From Bacillota bacterium (lineage in GTDB: Bacteria > Bacillota > Sulfobacillia > Sulfobacillales > JAIMBI01), in assembly GCA_021797815.1 (NCBI GenBank), contig JAJZYZ010000014.1, positions 1 to 46,574 on the forward strand: a stretch of DNA of 46,574 nt. The letters are read 5' to 3'. The stretch's first letter is position 1, and each line of letters starts with the position of its first letter. The position numbers were made by a program, and so were the translations under genes. This document shows, piece after piece, positions 1,913-20,890 of the stretch. Under the pieces are notes generated by a model. The model did no database searches, was not told the origin of the DNA, and saw nothing but the letters and a program-made list of their open reading frames with translations.

Positions 1913-3688
1913 GGCGCTTGCGAACTGGTGTGCCTCCGATGCGGGGAAGAGCTCGTCGCGCTCGCCGGCGACGAGCAGTGTTGGCGTCCGCACATGGCCG
2001 GCGTGGGCAAGCGGAGAGCGGCCGATGGCGAGCTCCATGTGCTGCCAGGGTGGACCCCCGATAAGAGCCTCGAACCAAGCGCGGCCGCTGCCGGCGGTTG
2101 TGCCGTAGAGGCTGAACCAGTTGACGGCGGGCGCCCCCATCACGGCGGCTTTAAAGCGATCGGTCTGGGTGATGGCCCAGGCGGCGAGAAAGCCGCCATA
2201 CCCATAGCCCACAATCGCAAGGCGCTTCGGATCCGCCAGCGCCGCCGCCAGATGTTCGTCCAGCACCGCCATCAGGTCCTGAAAATCACCGCCGCCGGGA
2301 TCGCCCACGACCCCTTCGCTGAACGCCGTACCATAGCTGGTGCTGCCGCGAGGGTTCGCCATCAGCACCAGATATCCGCGCGCGGCCAGAAGTTGCGCAC
2401 CTGCATGAAAAGCGGGACCGAAGCCACCGCCGGGTCCTCCATGAAGGAGGAGGACGGTGGGGTGAGGCGCCTCCTGGTGCGGGCGCACGCGAAAGCCGCT
2501 CACAGCGTAACGCCCCCCGCTGATGGTGAACGGTTCCGGCTCGATCACCGGTCGGCTTTGCTGACGGCCTGCGTGAAGATGGGTGCAGAGTTCGGTCCGG
2601 TCTTGCCAGCGGTATACATCGGGGGGCTCGGCAGGCGTGGCGCCCACGACCCACACACCGCCGTCGAACACGGCTAGATCCAGCACGGTAGGCGGAAGGC
2701 CCGGCAGTGCCTCGGGACGGTGGGTGAAATCCCGGAACCGGTACACGTCGGACCGGCCCTGGTTGGCCACGATGGCGTAGAGCGTTCCGTCGGACCCAAA
2801 CTGCAGTGGGTGCACGTCCAGCGACCCCGGGCTGCCGGGCAGCGACAGGCCCACGGGGCGCTCCCAGTGCGCGGTCACATCCACAACGCCACGGCGCCCG
2901 CCGAGCGCCATCCGATACAAATGGGGCTCGCGGGCGATAGGATGGTCCCCTTTGGGCACACCGGTAAAGACGAGCCCATCCCCCGCGGGCGGGACGGCGA
3001 TGGAACCGATGTGTCCGCTAAAGCCCTCAAGCAAGGTCGGCGCGGCGTCCGGCCGCAGGATCTGCAACACTTCTATCGGCCCGGCCGGGTCAAACGTGGA
3101 GGCGGCCACCACCAGGCTGCCGTCGGGAAGCCATGTTGGAAGACGATAAGAAATAGGGAAGCCGGGAGAGCCGGAAGCGGCGGCAAGTTCATGCGAGGTG
3201 CCGCCATCAACACTCAACAACAGCACCGATCCCCGGGATGTTGATCCGGCCGCGACGGCGAGGTGCTCGCTGTCAGGGGCCCAGGCCAGGTCGTGCACCC
3301 GGAACGGGGGCAGCGGAATCGCCGCCGCGACGGTGTCAGATGCGGCGTTGTCTAAACCTGTCACACGCAGGTAATCGCGGCGGAGGTCTCGATGGACGTA
3401 CACGAGCCGGCGCCCATCGGGCGAAAGCCGCCCGAGAATGTCGTGAGGCCCTCGAGTTAGGGGAGACAGGCCACCGGGGGTGAGACGGGCGATCCACTGC
3501 TCCAGGCGATTGTGGACCAGGTCCGGATGACGGAAGCCGGCTACCAGAGTGGACCCGTCCCGGCTGACCTGGAGCCCCCCGGGCACGGTCCAGTCGACGA
3601 CGGCCGCCGGCGTCCATCCCCCGAAGCTCCGGCTGCCGTCGTGGCCGGCGGCCTCTCGATCCTCTCGCTCTCCGTGTCCTGCCTTCAT
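1898..3688 (-). pseudogene. S9-family (acylaminoacyl-peptidase-like) protein, interrupted by IS and lacking the catalytic Ser
   Basis: About 596 residues remain. The N-terminal two thirds (to about residue 390) resembles the WD40-like beta-propeller of S9 peptidases. The rest is the alpha/beta-hydrolase domain, with the oxyanion-loop segment LLLHGGPGGGFG, the strand motif NPRGSTSYG and the acid segment AGERDELFP. The nucleophile elbow, normally G-x-S-x-G-G, reads VGYGYGGF: the Ser position (residue 496, codon GGG at 2201-2203) is Gly. The protein therefore probably lacked peptidase activity before the IS removed the His-containing tail. ATG at 3688 is preferred over GTG at 3697 because GGTGG lies about 5 nt upstream. 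It is likely cytoplasmic, with no signal peptide. The final residues come from the IS end. Confidence 0.85.
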
Positions 3689-4413
3689 GGTCGCCACCTG
3701 TCCCCATCCATTCGTGAACGTGGCGCGTTAAGTCTCGATGACTTCGGGACCGGGTGCCCGAGTTCCTGTGCACCTGACGGCCCGGGGTTTCGCCCGTCCG
3801 GCACCGTCGAGCTTCGGGCGCAAGACCGCAGGAAGCACGGGGCCTCTGTCCGTCGAATACGATCTCTCCGTGGGGTGCTTGTCAGACCGCTGGGGAAAGC
3901 GGGCGCGGCCCTCGGCATTGAGGCAGCGGCCGGCCGCGAGGTCCGCGTGGCTCCCATGCGCCTGGCAGGCCAGACCGCCGTCCCCGTCGCCCTGGCCAGC
4001 GGGGGACAGATCGGCCTCGTCGTGCGGACGCCGCCGGATGGGCCACCCACCATGCTGTCGGCGTCTCTTTCTATCCCGGCCTCCGTCGAATCGAGCAGCC
4101 TTCAGCATGCCGGATTCCGTCGGGGCGCAGACACTGGAAGAAGGTGTACACTGCCTTCTTGTAGTCGCGGTCAGGGTGGGCGCCGAAACGGCGAGAGAAA
4201 GGGCGAGTTGACCCAGTCCCTCACGCAATCGTCGTGGCATCAGTGGGGACGGCCGTCCCGTCGGGTGTGGCGCTGTGGGGGAAAACGACCTCACCACGAC
4301 GCCATCGGCCCGCTAACTCCAGTGGATCACATGGATCCCGGCGGCCGGTTCGCCGATCCGACACACGCATCGCGGCACAACGTTAGAATCACGGGCCGGC
4401 CGCGCGCCGGCGG
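3689..4413. other. No recognisable gene; possible degraded coding DNA
   Basis: Several overlapping open frames exist on both strands, but none has a ribosome-binding site or recognisable protein motif. A minus-strand stretch at about 4080-4200 reads RFGAHPDRDYKKAVYTFFQC, which looks more protein-like than its surroundings and could be a relic; I cannot assign it. The region separates the interrupted peptidase from the strong rplM promoter. Confidence 0.5.
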
Positions 4414-4442
4414 TTGACGCGGACAGGTCCGATAGCTAATAT
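4414..4442 (+). promoter_or_regulatory. Promoter of the rplM-rpsI operon
   Basis: TTGACG (4414-4419), a 17-bp spacer and TATAAT-like TAATAT (4437-4442) form a near-consensus vegetative promoter. Transcription would begin at about 4449, giving a leader of about 57 nt before the rplM start. Confidence 0.8.
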
Positions 4443-4448
4443 AGGTGT

Positions 4449-4505
4449 GCTCGCCAGTTGGCGCTTTGTGCCGACGGCGCATTTTTTGGGAGGGAGTCGA
4501 CCTTC
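4449..4505 (+). promoter_or_regulatory. L13-type ribosomal protein leader with terminator-like hairpin
   Basis: The leader holds a small hairpin (CGCC-AGTT-GGCG, 4452-4463) and then a second (TGTGCC-GAC-GGCGCA, 4467-4481) followed directly by six T residues (4482-4487). The ribosome-binding site GGGAGGGAG (4488-4496) begins right after the T run. Position and size fit the L13 autoregulatory leader known in Bacillota, where ribosomal protein binding controls the operon. Here the second hairpin looks able to stop transcription. Ligand and mechanism are inferred. Confidence 0.6.
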
Positions 4506-4937
4506 GTGTCCACGTTCATGGCGCGTCGCCAAGACGTCGTCCGCAAGTGGTGGGTAATCGATGCCGGAGGCAAGCCTCTTGGCCGCGTGGCCGTTGCTGC
4601 GGCCGTGCTCCTTCGTGGGAAGCACAAGCCCATCTACACTCCGCATGTAGATACCGGTGACCACGTGATCATCATTAACGCGGCCAAAACGGTGCTGACC
4701 GGACGCAAGCTCGACCAGAAGATTTACTTTCACCATTCCGGGTACCCGGGGGGCCTTCGACGGGTGGTATACCGGCGTCTCATGAGTGAGCGTCCGGACT
4801 TTGCCGTGGAGAGGGCGATTCGCGGAATGCTTCCGAAGACCAAACTTGGTCGGGAGATGTTCCGGAAGCTCCGTGTTTACCGAGGGCCCGAGCATCCGCA
4901 CGCCGGGCAGCTGCCCGACATCTGGGAGGTCAAGTAG
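4506..4937 (+). CDS. rplM: 50S ribosomal protein L13
   Basis: The 143-residue protein is full length for bacterial L13, a large-subunit protein that binds 23S rRNA early in assembly. Recognisable segments are [15 protein letters not shown] near the N-terminus, the [11 protein letters not shown] core and the C-terminal [16 protein letters not shown]. The start is GTG at 4506: GGGAGGGAG ends 9 nt upstream, and [15 protein letters not shown] matches the usual L13 N-terminus. An open frame reaching up to 4458 overlaps the leader and is not used. The stop overlaps the rpsI start by one base, indicating translational coupling. Expression is probably set by the leader just upstream. Confidence 0.97.
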
Positions 4938-5332
4938 TGGCGACCGCACTGCAGTTTTGGGGAACCGGCCGCCGGAAGAGGGCCATCGCCAGAGTCCGGG
5001 TCATGCCCGGCAGTGGCGAGATCCGTATCAATCGACGCCGTTTCGACGACTATTTCCAGTTGGCGCAGCATCGCATGGTAGTGGTGGAACCGCTGAAGGC
5101 GGTCAAGGGCGAGAGCCGCTACGATGTCATCGCCACCGTCCAGGGTGGCGGTGTGTCGGGCCAGGCGGGTGCGGTGCGGCACGGGATAGCCCGGGCCCTG
5201 GTCAGGATGGACCACAACTTCCGGCCGACCCTGAAGAAGTCAGGTTATTTGACCCGCGACCCGCGGGTGAAGGAGCGGCGGAAGTACGGACTCAAGAAAG
5301 CCCGCAAGCGTCCGCAATTTTCCAAGCGTTAG
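4937..5332 (+). CDS. rpsI: 30S ribosomal protein S9
   Basis: The 131-residue protein matches bacterial S9: an N-terminal [15 protein letters not shown] segment, an internal glycine-rich [19 protein letters not shown] segment and the basic tail ending in FSKR, which in the family reaches toward P-site tRNA. It starts with GTG at 4937, sharing one base with the rplM stop codon. The GGGAGG in the end of rplM (about 4924-4929) serves as its ribosome-binding site. A strong intrinsic terminator follows 8 nt after the stop, so rplM and rpsI form a complete two-gene operon. Confidence 0.97.
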
Positions 5333-8721: not shown

Positions 8722-9519
8722 ATGGGCATCGTACGGCGCATGAGACCTCTCGGTCTCCTGGTCCTCATCGCGATGCTGGCGACAGCCTGTGGACCGGCCT
8801 TTGTACTCCCGCGCGTTCATGTGGCTCCGAAGCTCAAGCCGGAGAGCGACCATGCCATCCGGGTGCTGACGGCCCATCCCACCCTTATCACCAAGACGGG
8901 TGTGCTGTCGGTGAGTCCCGGGCCGCTCACCCGCGGAAACCTGGAGGTTCTCGTTCAGCCCATCGGGGCGCGCAAGCGTGTGCTGGTGTCAATTGGCGGC
9001 CTCGATTACAAGTGGCTCCGCCGTTGGCAGGTGGCGGGCGATCTGGTTCTCCTGGAAATCGGCACGCCGCCGTCCGCCCACCCGAAGAGCAACGAGTATC
9101 TCCATGTCGTGCTGGTGGCCGATGCGCGGACAGGGAAGCTCCTCTATCAGGGCCCGGTGGCCATCACGACCATCGTTTACCTCGATCCCCCGTACCTGGT
9201 CAAGGCGGGGCCGGCCAGTCTGCTGGGCCGCGCCCAGGCGGTGTGGCTCATCAACGTCGTCGCCGGGCGCCAGATTCGCGTGCTGTTTCCGCCTAACACC
9301 GTCGGCGTCGGGGAGGTGAAGAGCGGCCGCATCGAGTATCTGGTGCGTACAGACGGCCGGCTCCACCACCGCTCCCTGGCGATCCCCAAAACGGGCTGGC
9401 TTCCCTACAAGAACGTCAGCATCCTGAGGGTGAGCACGACCGGCCGCCGATCGGAGACGGCAATCGGCCGTGGCGGCACGGAGGCCGCCACGGCGCCGCC
9501 GAGCTCCAGCGGACGCTAG
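8722..9519 (+). CDS. Hypothetical lipoprotein
   Basis: The 265-residue protein begins with a lipoprotein signal (positive MGIVRRMRPLG, hydrophobic stretch, lipobox LATAC with the acylated Cys at about residue 25), so it is probably anchored to the outer face of the membrane. I recognise no enzymatic domain. The mature part is rich in beta-strand-like segments (VLVSIGG, LHVVLVADARTGKLLYQG), which might reflect propeller or sandwich repeats. ATG at 8722 is fixed by GGGAGG at 8711-8716 and the signal sequence. The tail is Thr/Ala/Ser-rich. Its TAG stop overlaps the stop of the convergent YerB-like gene in a shared CTAG. Confidence 0.8.
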   Translation: MGIVRRMRPLGLLVLIAMLATACGPAFVLPRVHVAPKLKPESDHAIRVLTAHPTLITKTGVLSVSPGPLTRGNLEVLVQPIGARKRVLVSIGGLDYKWLRRWQVAGDLVLLEIGTPPSAHPKSNEYLHVVLVADARTGKLLYQGPVAITTIVYLDPPYLVKAGPASLLGRAQAVWLINVVAGRQIRVLFPPNTVGVGEVKSGRIEYLVRTDGRLHHRSLAIPKTGWLPYKNVSILRVSTTGRRSETAIGRGGTEAATAPPSSSGR

Positions 9520-10598
9520 CTCCCGAGCGTCAAATGGAACGAGGACGGAGCGGAGCTCGTGGGCACCACTTCAATCCAGGTCTGTCCGGGGTCGAAGGGA
9601 GCCGGCTGGCCGTCGGGCAGAAAGAACCGGGTCGGCTGCCCGTTGCCCGCGTTCTGCCAGGTGCCCCGATAGTATTTGTGCCCCAGGAACAGAAGCGCCT
9701 CACCTGACCCTGCGGTGTTGATGTTGATCCAGCGATCGCTGGTGTTCGGATCGGCCATGTCCAGAGACTCGGTGGTGTACTGGATGACCACGTTTGACGC
9801 CACGACCGGCTGGCCTGAATTGGTGCCCATCACCTGCGTGTAGCCGGTCCCACACTCCTGGCACTCCACCCACCGGGTAAAGCCCTGCCGCGAGGCGTCC
9901 CAGCGCCACTGTTCAAGTGTGTTCTGCTGGTTCCACAGGAGCGTCAGGGTGCTGTAGCGGGGTGTTCCCGGCTTCTGCCGGGCAAACGACCATTGGGGCT
10001 TCACCTTGGGCGTGCCCCAGGTCTTGCGTGCGAACGCCGCGAGCGTACCGGCGTCGGCAAACAGGTTGTGCGGTGGCGGCGCGGAGGTGCGATAGAACAG
10101 ATTTTGGTAGATGCCATAATCCGCGTCCACATTGTGAATGCCGTCGGCCGCAATGGCCGCGTAGGCGGGCGTGGAGCCGCCGGCATGAAAATAATCAGCC
10201 TTCCAGCTGTTCACCCAGTACACGAAGTAGGGCCGAGCGGAGCGAACCGGGCCAACCACCTTCGGGAAGCTTCCCCAGAAGAGCAGCATGAAGCGGCTAT
10301 AATAGAAATTCTCCGTGTAAGCCTCGTACACGACGTCGGCGCTCTGGAGGCCCGCCTGCGGCCGCGCATACTGGGAGTTCTCAACCATGACCGCGATAAG
10401 CGGCCCGTGTGCCGTGCTGGGCTTGCCGGTGAGCGGGTCAAGCCGCTGGGGGGAAGCGGATGAATGTTTCACATGCGGCCTGTGGTGGGAAGAAGAGGGA
10501 GTCGTGAAGTTGCCGGCGCTTTTCGCTCCGCATCCCGCGGCTAACAATCCGACCCCGACAGTGAGCGAAAGTGCCATTATCCGATGCTTGACGGTCAT
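9516..10598 (-). CDS. YerB-like lipoprotein (DUF3048)
   Basis: The 360-residue protein has a lipoprotein signal (hydrophobic MALSLTVGVGLLAAGC, Cys at about residue 23) and then a His/Ser/Pro-rich linker. The conserved DUF3048 opening follows (LDPLTGKPS, then PLIAVMVENSQYARPQAG), with GPVRSARPYFV and, late in the protein, a second domain corresponding to DUF3048_C. B. subtilis YerB is the named relative; its biochemical role is unsettled. The protein should be membrane-anchored outside the cell. A divergent promoter pair with a Fur-family gene lies upstream, and an inverted repeat overlaps the likely promoter. The start could also be the internal ATG at about 10577. Confidence 0.85.
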   Translation of the reverse strand: MTVKHRIMALSLTVGVGLLAAGCGAKSAGNFTTPSSSHHRPHVKHSSASPQRLDPLTGKPSTAHGPLIAVMVENSQYARPQAGLQSADVVYEAYTENFYYSRFMLLFWGSFPKVVGPVRSARPYFVYWVNSWKADYFHAGGSTPAYAAIAADGIHNVDADYGIYQNLFYRTSAPPPHNLFADAGTLAAFARKTWGTPKVKPQWSFARQKPGTPRYSTLTLLWNQQNTLEQWRWDASRQGFTRWVECQECGTGYTQVMGTNSGQPVVASNVVIQYTTESLDMADPNTSDRWININTAGSGEALLFLGHKYYRGTWQNAGNGQPTRFFLPDGQPAPFDPGQTWIEVVPTSSAPSSFHLTLGS

Positions 10599-10661
10599 GG
10601 ACAGCGGCCCGGCTCGACCGGACCGCTTCCCTCCCTTCGGTGGACTCGCGTTCTTCAGGAA

Positions 10662-10701
10662 AGTCTCATTTCACCATACGCGCGGCTTTTGAGACTCGCA
10701 A
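10662..10701 (-). promoter_or_regulatory. YerB-like gene promoter with overlapping inverted-repeat operator
   Basis: On the minus strand TTGCGA (10701-10696), a 17-bp spacer and TATGGT (10678-10673) form a plausible promoter. A perfect 7-bp inverted repeat, AGTCTCA (10662-10668) and TGAGACT (10690-10696), is centred on the -10/spacer region, where a repressor would block RNA polymerase. It does not resemble the classical Fur box. Confidence 0.45.
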
Positions 10702-10727
10702 CTTTAACGAATCTCCCGCTGGCGTGG

Positions 10728-10756
10728 TTGCAGGCGGCCAGGTGGGATCTTATGCT
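10728..10756 (+). promoter_or_regulatory. Promoter of the Fur-family regulator gene
   Basis: TTGCAG (10728-10733), a 17-bp spacer and TATGCT (10751-10756). Transcription would start near 10763, leaving ATG codons at 10779 and 10791 as usable starts. Confidence 0.5.
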
Positions 10757-10790
10757 CTTCCATATACGGATCGGCCAAATGAGGGAGCAC

Positions 10791-11240
10791 ATGCAGCTGG
10801 CGCAGGTGTACCAGCGATTGGAGGAGGCCCGGCTACGGGTCACGCCGCAGCGCCAGACTGTGTTGCGCCTCCTGTCCCGGCGACTCGCGGAGGAACTGTC
10901 GGCCGAGGATCTTCATCGGCTCGCGAGCGAGGACGGAGATCCGGTGGGATTGGCCACCGTGTACCGGACCCTCGATGTTCTGTTTGGGGTTGGCGTCCTG
11001 ACCCAGATCATGAACGAGGACGGGGTGAGCCGCTACCGGCTCAACGTGGAGACCCTGCAGCCGCAGCAGCATCTCATCTGCGTTCGCTGCGGAGACCTGG
11101 TGGCGATAACCCTCTCGTGGCTGAATGGACTCGGCGAGCGCGTGCACGCGGCCACCGGCTTCACCGTGCTGGACCACGAACTGAAGCTCTACGGGGTGTG
11201 CATGGCCTGCCAGGGGAGCGGACGAAGAGGAGTCGGATAG
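10791..11240 (+). CDS. Fur-family transcriptional regulator (Fur/PerR/Zur type)
   Basis: The 149-residue protein has the Fur architecture: an N-terminal winged helix (LRVTPQRQTVLRLLSRR, then the recognition segment GLATVYRTLDVL at about 53-64) and a C-terminal dimerisation and metal domain. Two CxxC pairs (C97/C100 in ICVRCGD and C137/C140 in CMACQG) would hold the structural zinc. Whether it senses iron, zinc or peroxide cannot be decided; the usual HxH cluster between the domains is poor. ATG at 10791 is chosen because GAGG (10781-10784) lies 6 nt upstream; ATG at 10779 or 10752 is possible. The next gene, the UGA-containing Spx/ArsC-like protein, begins 9 nt after its stop, so the two are probably co-transcribed. 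Confidence 0.85.
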   Translation: MQLAQVYQRLEEARLRVTPQRQTVLRLLSRRLAEELSAEDLHRLASEDGDPVGLATVYRTLDVLFGVGVLTQIMNEDGVSRYRLNVETLQPQQHLICVRCGDLVAITLSWLNGLGERVHAATGFTVLDHELKLYGVCMACQGSGRRGVG

Positions 11241-11249
11241 GAGATGCCC

Positions 11250-11585
11250 GTGAAGTTTTACGGCTACGCTCTCTGAAGCACCTGCCAGAAGGCGAAGGCG
11301 TGGCTTTCGCAGGCGGGGGCGGTCTTCGAGGAGCGCGACTTGATTCGTAGGCCCCTCGGCCGGCTCGAGGTGGAGGACATGGTGACACGCGTCGGGGGCC
11401 TGGACAACATCCTTTCCACCCGGAGTCCCGCCTATAAGAAACGTGCAGGCAGCGTCGGGACGGATGACGGGTGGCTCCAGGCCATGGTCGAAGAGCCACG
11501 CCTCATGCGCCGCCCCATCCTTGTTACGGAGCGGGGTGTGGCCGTCGGGTTCAATCCGGACACCTGGTCGCGCCTGCTCGGCTAG
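11250..11585 (+). CDS. Candidate selenoprotein: Spx/ArsC-family thioredoxin-fold protein with in-frame UGA (Sec9)
   Basis: Read through one in-frame TGA (11274-11276), this is a complete 111-residue Spx/ArsC/YffB-like protein: MKFYGYALUSTCQKAKAWL at the start, then TRSPAYKK and PRLMRRPILV, and ending in GFNPDTWSRLLG. These are the family landmarks in order. The UGA falls where family members have the first redox Cys of CxxC, giving U-S-T-C. No other stop or frameshift is present. A SECIS-like hairpin follows the UGA. GTG at 11250 is preferred because AGGAG (11239-11243) lies 6 nt upstream; ATG at 11244 would be only 0 nt from it. The gene directly follows the Fur-family gene. The protein would be a cytoplasmic thiol/selenol redox enzyme or regulator; arsenate reduction is possible but unproven. 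The alternative is a pseudogene with one nonsense mutation. Confidence 0.78.
11274..11310 (+). promoter_or_regulatory. UGA codon and putative bacterial SECIS element, gene at 11250
   Basis: The UGA (11274-11276) is followed after 15 nt by GCGAAGG (11292-11298), loop CGUGG (11299-11303) and CUUUCGC (11304-11310). This is a 7-bp stem with one G-U pair and an apical loop containing GU, placed 22-26 nt after the UGA. That spacing is within the range known for SelB-dependent bacterial SECIS elements. The same geometry occurs at 20780-20816. Confidence 0.7.
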
Positions 11586-20603: not shown

Positions 20604-20846
20604 CTACAGACCGAGAAGCTTGCGTAATTGCGCCTCATGGAAACCGATAAGAACCTGACGGTCGCCACCCTCCGTCTCGATGACGGTGGTGGGGGTGCTG
20701 CGCGATCCCAACTTAATCAACTCGTCCATGGCCGCCCTATCATCCATAATATCGCGATCCTCAAACGCGATGCCATTTCGAGAGAGCCACGCCCTCTCCA
20801 TCTCACAGGCGCCTCACCCGGGCTGGTGATAAACGATGACGCGCAC
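20604..20846 (-). CDS. Candidate selenoprotein: glutaredoxin-like protein with in-frame UGA (Sec11)
   Basis: Read through one TGA (20816-20814), this is a complete 80-residue glutaredoxin/NrdH-like protein. It has a first strand RVIVYHQPG, then the redox motif U-G-A-C, helix EMERAWLSRNG, strand FEDRDI, the cis-Pro loop RSTPTTVI and the Gly-rich end VLIGFHEAQL. The UGA replaces exactly the first Cys of CxxC. GTG at 20846 is set by GGGGAGGG about 6 nt upstream. Nothing else interrupts the frame. A SECIS-like hairpin lies 15 nt after the UGA. The gene follows dinB by 45 nt on the same strand and precedes the YbjQ operon. The likely role is dithiol/selenothiol reduction with low-molecular thiols or thioredoxin reductase. 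The alternative is a pseudogene with one nonsense mutation. Confidence 0.8.
20780..20816 (-). promoter_or_regulatory. UGA codon and putative bacterial SECIS element, glutaredoxin gene
   Basis: On the minus strand the UGA (20816-20814) is followed after 15 nt by GAGAGGG, loop CGUGG and CUCUCUC (20798-20780). This is a 7-bp stem with one G-U pair at the same place as in the element at 11292-11310. The two stems differ at pairs 2 and 5 by compensating changes, while spacing and loop are identical. Confidence 0.72.
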
Positions 20847-20890
20847 AAGGTCCCTCCCCATGCCTAAACATCGGATCGATCGTGCTCGCT

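Follow-up and report, generated by a model that had tools for sequence, protein, structure and literature searches.

A probable selenoprotein gene on the Spx side of the ArsC superfamily in Sulfobacillales

A reading frame interrupted by one TGA, just where a CxxC-type motif begins, raises the question of whether this codon is a lesion or a selenocysteine (Sec) codon and, in the latter case, what the protein could do. Such a frame is found at positions 11250 to 11585 (plus strand) of the window, i.e., the whole stretch of 46,574 nucleotides analysed here, which comes from a member of the Sulfobacillales. When TGA is read as U, it gives a protein of 111 residues, VKFYGYALUSTCQKAKAWL...TRSPAYKK...RRPILVTERGVAVGFNPDTWSRLLG, followed by a TAG stop. 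The TGA at 11274-11276 is the sole interruption of the 111-codon frame and corresponds to residue 9, the equivalent of Cys10 of Spx. Translation bears out the preliminary description of the locus, which had reported one in-frame TGA at the first redox Cys of a 111-residue Spx/ArsC-type frame and the landmarks TRSPAYKK, RRPILV and GFNPDTW, all of which are present. GTG at 11250 suits as a start better than the alternative in-frame ATG at 11244, because the Shine-Dalgarno sequence AGGAG (11239-11243, plus strand), which overlaps the stop codon of the upstream Fur-family gene, leaves it a 6-nt spacer. The whole reading favoured here, a functional selenoprotein gene whose product acts as a mono-selenol reductase, is held at a probability of about 0.63. 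Judging from sequence comparisons, decoding of UGA 11274 as Sec is, taken by itself, almost certain; once this is granted, an enzymatic (reductase) role is probable.

The gene was sought by protein search in 61 genomes, 42 of them from the same order. It is present in 36 of these 42 order genomes (13 genera), and all 36 order-mates that have it carry a single TGA, always in the same column. The six order genomes in which it is lacking are G007, where selA and selC are present, both members of genus g12, which also have no selA above the cut-off, and three genomes that are 59-63% complete. G048, which belongs to the same class and lies outside the order, carries the Sec gene with its TGA in that same column and makes up, with the order members, the set of 37 Sec genes used below. 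Downstream of the TGA, dN/dS ranges from 0.06 to 0.29 in ten close pairs, and the frame beyond this codon is therefore used; one pair (L041/L153) with a dN/dS of 1.1 was discarded, its members differing by an indel and having been compared without a gap.

A family-profile search of 154 genomes of the class yielded, outside the order, 20 further members with a TGA and 12 without a stop, G048 being the one among them for which the column of the TGA is established. A scan of named public genomes added 20 Sec members, mostly from Syntrophomonadaceae and other Bacillota, alongside 54 Cys members, numbers that are not frequencies since the scan was seeded from query peptides. In the tree, which has few columns for its number of rows, a branch supported at 99% (SH-aLRT) has all Sec rows but one on the same side. 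The sequence L125 (JAUMWO010000005.1) lies inside the Cys branch and carries a single TGA at the first-Cys column but no SECIS core (GGCUUGGCU), which may reflect either a separate origin of Sec or an error. A second family member of genome G122 (G122:C26:2118-2453) has TAG instead of TGA inside the match.

A GU hairpin at a distance compatible with SelB had been announced after the UGA, and it is indeed there. The upper hairpin of this putative SECIS element, GCGAAGGC-GUG-GCUUUCGC, occupies positions 11292-11310 (plus strand), with the GUG loop at 11300-11302 (GU at 11300-11301). Bacterial SECIS (bSECIS) criteria are a loop of 3-9 nt with a G within its first two positions, a stem of 4-16 bp, a distance of 16-37 nt from the UGA and an MFE of -7.5 or lower (PMC13188914). 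The hairpin falls within all of these bounds, with its 3-nt loop, 8 bp, 23 nt between UGA and loop, and -9.8 kcal/mol for the 19 nt folded by themselves. The 47-nt fold that follows the UGA reaches -22.0 kcal/mol (z = -2.45 versus shuffles). Folding energy alone is nevertheless weak as proof of a SECIS element, the mean z over the 37 genes being -0.8 versus synonymous-codon shuffles.

Comparison among the Sec genes reveals that the octamer GCGUGGCU downstream of the UGA is kept in 37/37 at a fixed distance. Within the stem, GC, AU, GU, CG and UA pairs interchange, with 21 double-changed cells versus 6.3 when shuffled. The covariation score is 0.246 versus 0.120 for shuffles (0/500), and the structure beats every slid version; two basal pairs of the stem are retained in only half of the sequences. 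Far more telling than folding energy appears to be the codon control provided by the Cys homologues. Alanine codon 8 is GCG in all 37 Sec genes (order plus G048) and in 18 of 20 other Sec genes, versus 14 of the 54 Cys homologues with the identical CQKAKAWL peptide (37/37 versus 14/54, Fisher p 3e-14, ignoring phylogeny). In the same way, about 6.6 of the 8 stem positions are paired in Sec genes versus a mean of 3.5 of 8 in these 54 homologues. Because the latter encode the same peptide without the hairpin and mostly without GCG, the SECIS element is not explained by coding alone. The residues encoded at its loop, A17-W18-L19, are all invariant, and the RNA hairpin may, through this loop, have helped to fix them.

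The search for the Sec machinery, which the preliminary description had called for, was only partly successful in the source genome: selB (332 bits over cut-off) and a selD of the Sec type are present, while selA and tRNA-Sec (selC) were not found in the source assembly. The selD gene (L016, G000:C15:19166-20098) itself has an in-frame TGA, at SGUGCK. The hairpin after this UGA looks different and departs from the SECIS consensus of the Sec genes, and the SECIS model is for this reason not a general detector. The congener G001 has both selA and tRNA-Sec(tca). Its selA stretch matches the source genome only from 5597 on, where contig C126 starts (base 1), and the match of its selC stretch stops at 4412, at the last base (39888) of contig C1; on these congener stretches, selA lies at 3467-4753 and selC at 5234, both just past the ends of the source contigs. 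Since contigs end beside both loci, the two absences were rejected as evidence against Sec decoding and probably correspond to assembly gaps, not to loss. In the congener, the tRNA-Sec gene was located at the ends of two contigs (end of G001:C70, start of G001:C175). Over the 61 genomes, 34 have both the Sec gene and selA, 3 the Sec gene only, 13 selA only and 11 neither, a co-occurrence with p 0.001, uncorrected for kinship.

The window also holds a second putative selenoprotein gene, at 20604-20861 on the minus strand, which was found with the SECIS model (E 0.007). Its translation, MGRDLVRVIVYHQPG-U-GACEMERAWLS..., is a glutaredoxin-like protein of 85 residues with a GUGAC motif (PF00462, 42.8 bits over 22.9) that scores below the NCBIfam UXX-star cut-offs. 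The UGA lies at 20816-20814 and the same SECIS core (AGAGGGCGUGGCUCUCU) at 20798-20780. A syntenic copy occurs in the congener (G001:C34), together with a paralogue at G001:C221:855. The SECIS model also matched at G000:C34 and at G000:C82, these hits not resembling Sec genes.

Two readings would dispense with Sec altogether. A lone TGA for TGC or TGT is the expected product of one sequencing error at the Cys codon or of one nonsense mutation in a decaying gene. Such an accident is extremely improbable, given that the same TGA occurs in 36/36 independent order-mates, that selection downstream of it is purifying, and that the SECIS element is conserved in the RNA beyond the requirement of the protein; the earlier argument against a decayed gene is thus upheld. 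Reassignment of TGA (code 4 or 25), the residue being Trp or Gly, could account for the in-frame TGAs of selD and of the glutaredoxin-like gene as well. It is even less credible, since all three TGAs stand at catalytic Cys/Sec positions, SelB is present, and the neighbouring moaA and methyltransferase gene end in TGA. The initial view of the locus as a candidate selenoprotein gene is supported by the order-wide Sec column, the bSECIS criteria, selB and the Sec-type selD, and by the selA and selC of the congener, whose places correspond to probable assembly gaps in the source genome.

The window protein belongs to the ArsC superfamily (PF03960, 58.6 bits for a gathering score of 24). Its sequence is closest to Spx (E 1e-14), then to YffB and ArsC-like proteins, and its AlphaFold model (pLDDT 96.7) has Spx 3gfk as best PDB match (TM 0.87). 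With the Spx/MgsR model TIGR01617 (cut-off 75.05), it scores 72.9, its sibling of G001 80.5 and three other order-mates 73.2-74.3. NF041106 ArsC_rel_Se_1 (cut-off 85) gives 27.6 bits, and 20-33 for the relatives, and TIGR00014 arsC (cut-off 106) gives 35.5 bits. The protein thus appears to lie on the Spx side of the ArsC superfamily without being established as a Spx; the former label of Spx/ArsC type fits in this sense, except that the C-terminal tail and K62 of Spx are lacking. Residues Y6, U9, A15, A17-W18-L19, P35, S59, E82-P83-R84-L85, R88-P89 and G100 are invariant in the 37 proteins. At the position of the second Cys of the CxxC, C is found in 24 of them, S in 9 and A in 4; the 13 with S or A have no Cys at all. 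The motif, described at the outset as USTC, therefore keeps its invariant Sec and becomes Uxx(C/S/A), the second Cys being dispensable. R88 is the equivalent of Spx R92, a residue in contact with a sulfate ion in the crystal structure of oxidised Spx (PMC2801614), and by analogy an anion pocket beside the Sec is plausible.

As had been noticed early on, the Sec gene follows a gene for a Fur-type regulator. This ORF (10584-11240, plus strand), whose true start is uncertain, encodes a Fur-family metalloregulator (PF01475, 87.5 bits, E 9.5e-25) with the Fur domain at residues 82-203. A Fur-family homologue is found immediately upstream of the Sec gene in 34 of 36 order-mates. This adjacency suggests that the two genes are co-transcribed and points to a metal or peroxide control of the Sec gene. 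A DUF3048 (YerB-like) gene (9516-10598, minus strand) stands beside the Fur-family gene; a homologue at this place was seen only in family f1.

In the proposed mechanism, SelB and tRNA-Sec would deliver Sec at UGA 11274, the hairpin 11292-11310 presenting its GU apical loop 23 nt downstream. The product would be a thioredoxin-fold protein whose nucleophile is Sec and which bears the invariant Arg R88. Its selenolate would attack an oxidised substrate, which could be a disulfide, a peroxide, or an oxidised metalloid or sulfur species, and the selenenylated enzyme would be resolved by an external thiol or, where one exists, by the second Cys. The UxxC of the window protein could still form a selenenylsulfide. 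In the 13 Cys-free proteins, the selenol would have to act by itself and rely on an external partner for its resolution, as the thiol of monothiol glutaredoxins does. If transcribed together with the Fur-family sensor, the Sec protein would be tied to iron or peroxide stress.

A selenoprotein of this family could also be a Spx-like regulator, in which selenenylsulfide formation would switch binding to the alpha-CTD of RNA polymerase. The nearest solved proteins in sequence and fold are Spx, the nearest characterised relative and itself a regulator, and the Sec protein is the sole superfamily member found in most of these genomes. Furthermore, the R92 position is invariant, the R60 position is R or K in 32/37, and the G52 position, absolutely required in Spx for the alpha-CTD contact (PMC2801614), is Gly in 31/37. 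However, K62 is kept in 0/37, being replaced by Pro (34/37) or Thr, and the protein ends where the C-terminal tail of Spx begins. The intramolecular CxxC switch of Spx is not found either, Sec replacing the first Cys and the second being often lost, and it cannot be general when 13/37 have neither a second nor any other Cys. Such a regulator is a minority prospect, rather unlikely. Somewhat more doubtful still is a selenium-dependent Spx acting as a lone-Sec sensor, which would be oxidised by peroxide, resolved by small thiols and work with the Fur-family sensor of the same operon. Membership of Pfam ArsC could also suggest a Sec-dependent arsenate reductase, and marine metagenomes are known to encode true ArsC proteins with Sec, of the form UxxS (PMC1088965, PMC13188914). 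This role is improbable, as the TIGR00014 score is only about a third of its cut-off and the gene conserved next to it belongs to the Fur family and is no ars gene. In E. coli, ArsC holds arsenate by R60, R94 and R107; of these three Arg, only the equivalent of R94 appears invariant in the Sec proteins. The reductase remains favoured by the combination of a lone invariant Sec and a plausible anion pocket.

Within the ArsC family, cd03032 is the subdivision that we take to be that of Spx. Reports of ArsC-like proteins with Sec go back to 2005 (PMC1088965, PMC1794560, PMC2398784), in keeping with the mention of selenoproteome surveys in the preliminary description. For example, the GOS selenoproteome includes an Arsenate reductase 2, with UxxC, under cd03032 (PMC2398784), and reviews list a UxxC "arsenate reductase-like protein" under NF041106. 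These proteins share with the window family a Sec at the first redox position and an ArsC/Spx-like fold, whereas the window family scores far below the NF041106 cut-off, can dispense with the second Cys and is coupled to a Fur-family gene. The UxxS arsenate reductase (TIGR00014; PMC1088965) is likewise an ArsC superfamily member with a Sec nucleophile and Ser for the second Cys, but the window protein is not an arsC equivalog. Spx/MgsR (TIGR01617), with B. subtilis Spx, is the best match in sequence and fold, Cys10 corresponding to Sec9 and R92 to R88; the window family differs by this Sec, by the frequent loss of Cys13, and by lacking K62 and the C-terminal tail. The UXX-star glutaredoxin-like selenoproteins (NF041212) are also short thioredoxin-fold selenoproteins, but have only about 70 residues, without the ArsC/Spx helical insertion and the RRP motif. 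A search of mostly open-access literature found no earlier report of this Bacillota branch; for Sulfobacillus, it brought up mentions of a Sec formate dehydrogenase and of PrxU.

The kind of selenoprotein is thus known, but the family appears to form a branch of it, closest to Spx within the ArsC superfamily, that no model had covered before; the dispensable second Cys, the Fur-family coupling and the second selenoprotein of the window also appear to be new. Standard ORF calling stops at the UGA and NF041106 does not catch the family, so that annotation may easily overlook this selenoprotein, found across the order, or reduce it to a fragment of 81 residues. The same-peptide Cys homologues provide a clean control for SECIS elements. 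The family also offers a natural experiment on the use of Sec: Sec is fixed and the Cys that would resolve it is lost, whereas a dithiol mechanism would predict the opposite. If the regulatory role were true, RNA polymerase would have in this protein a redox sensor based on selenium.
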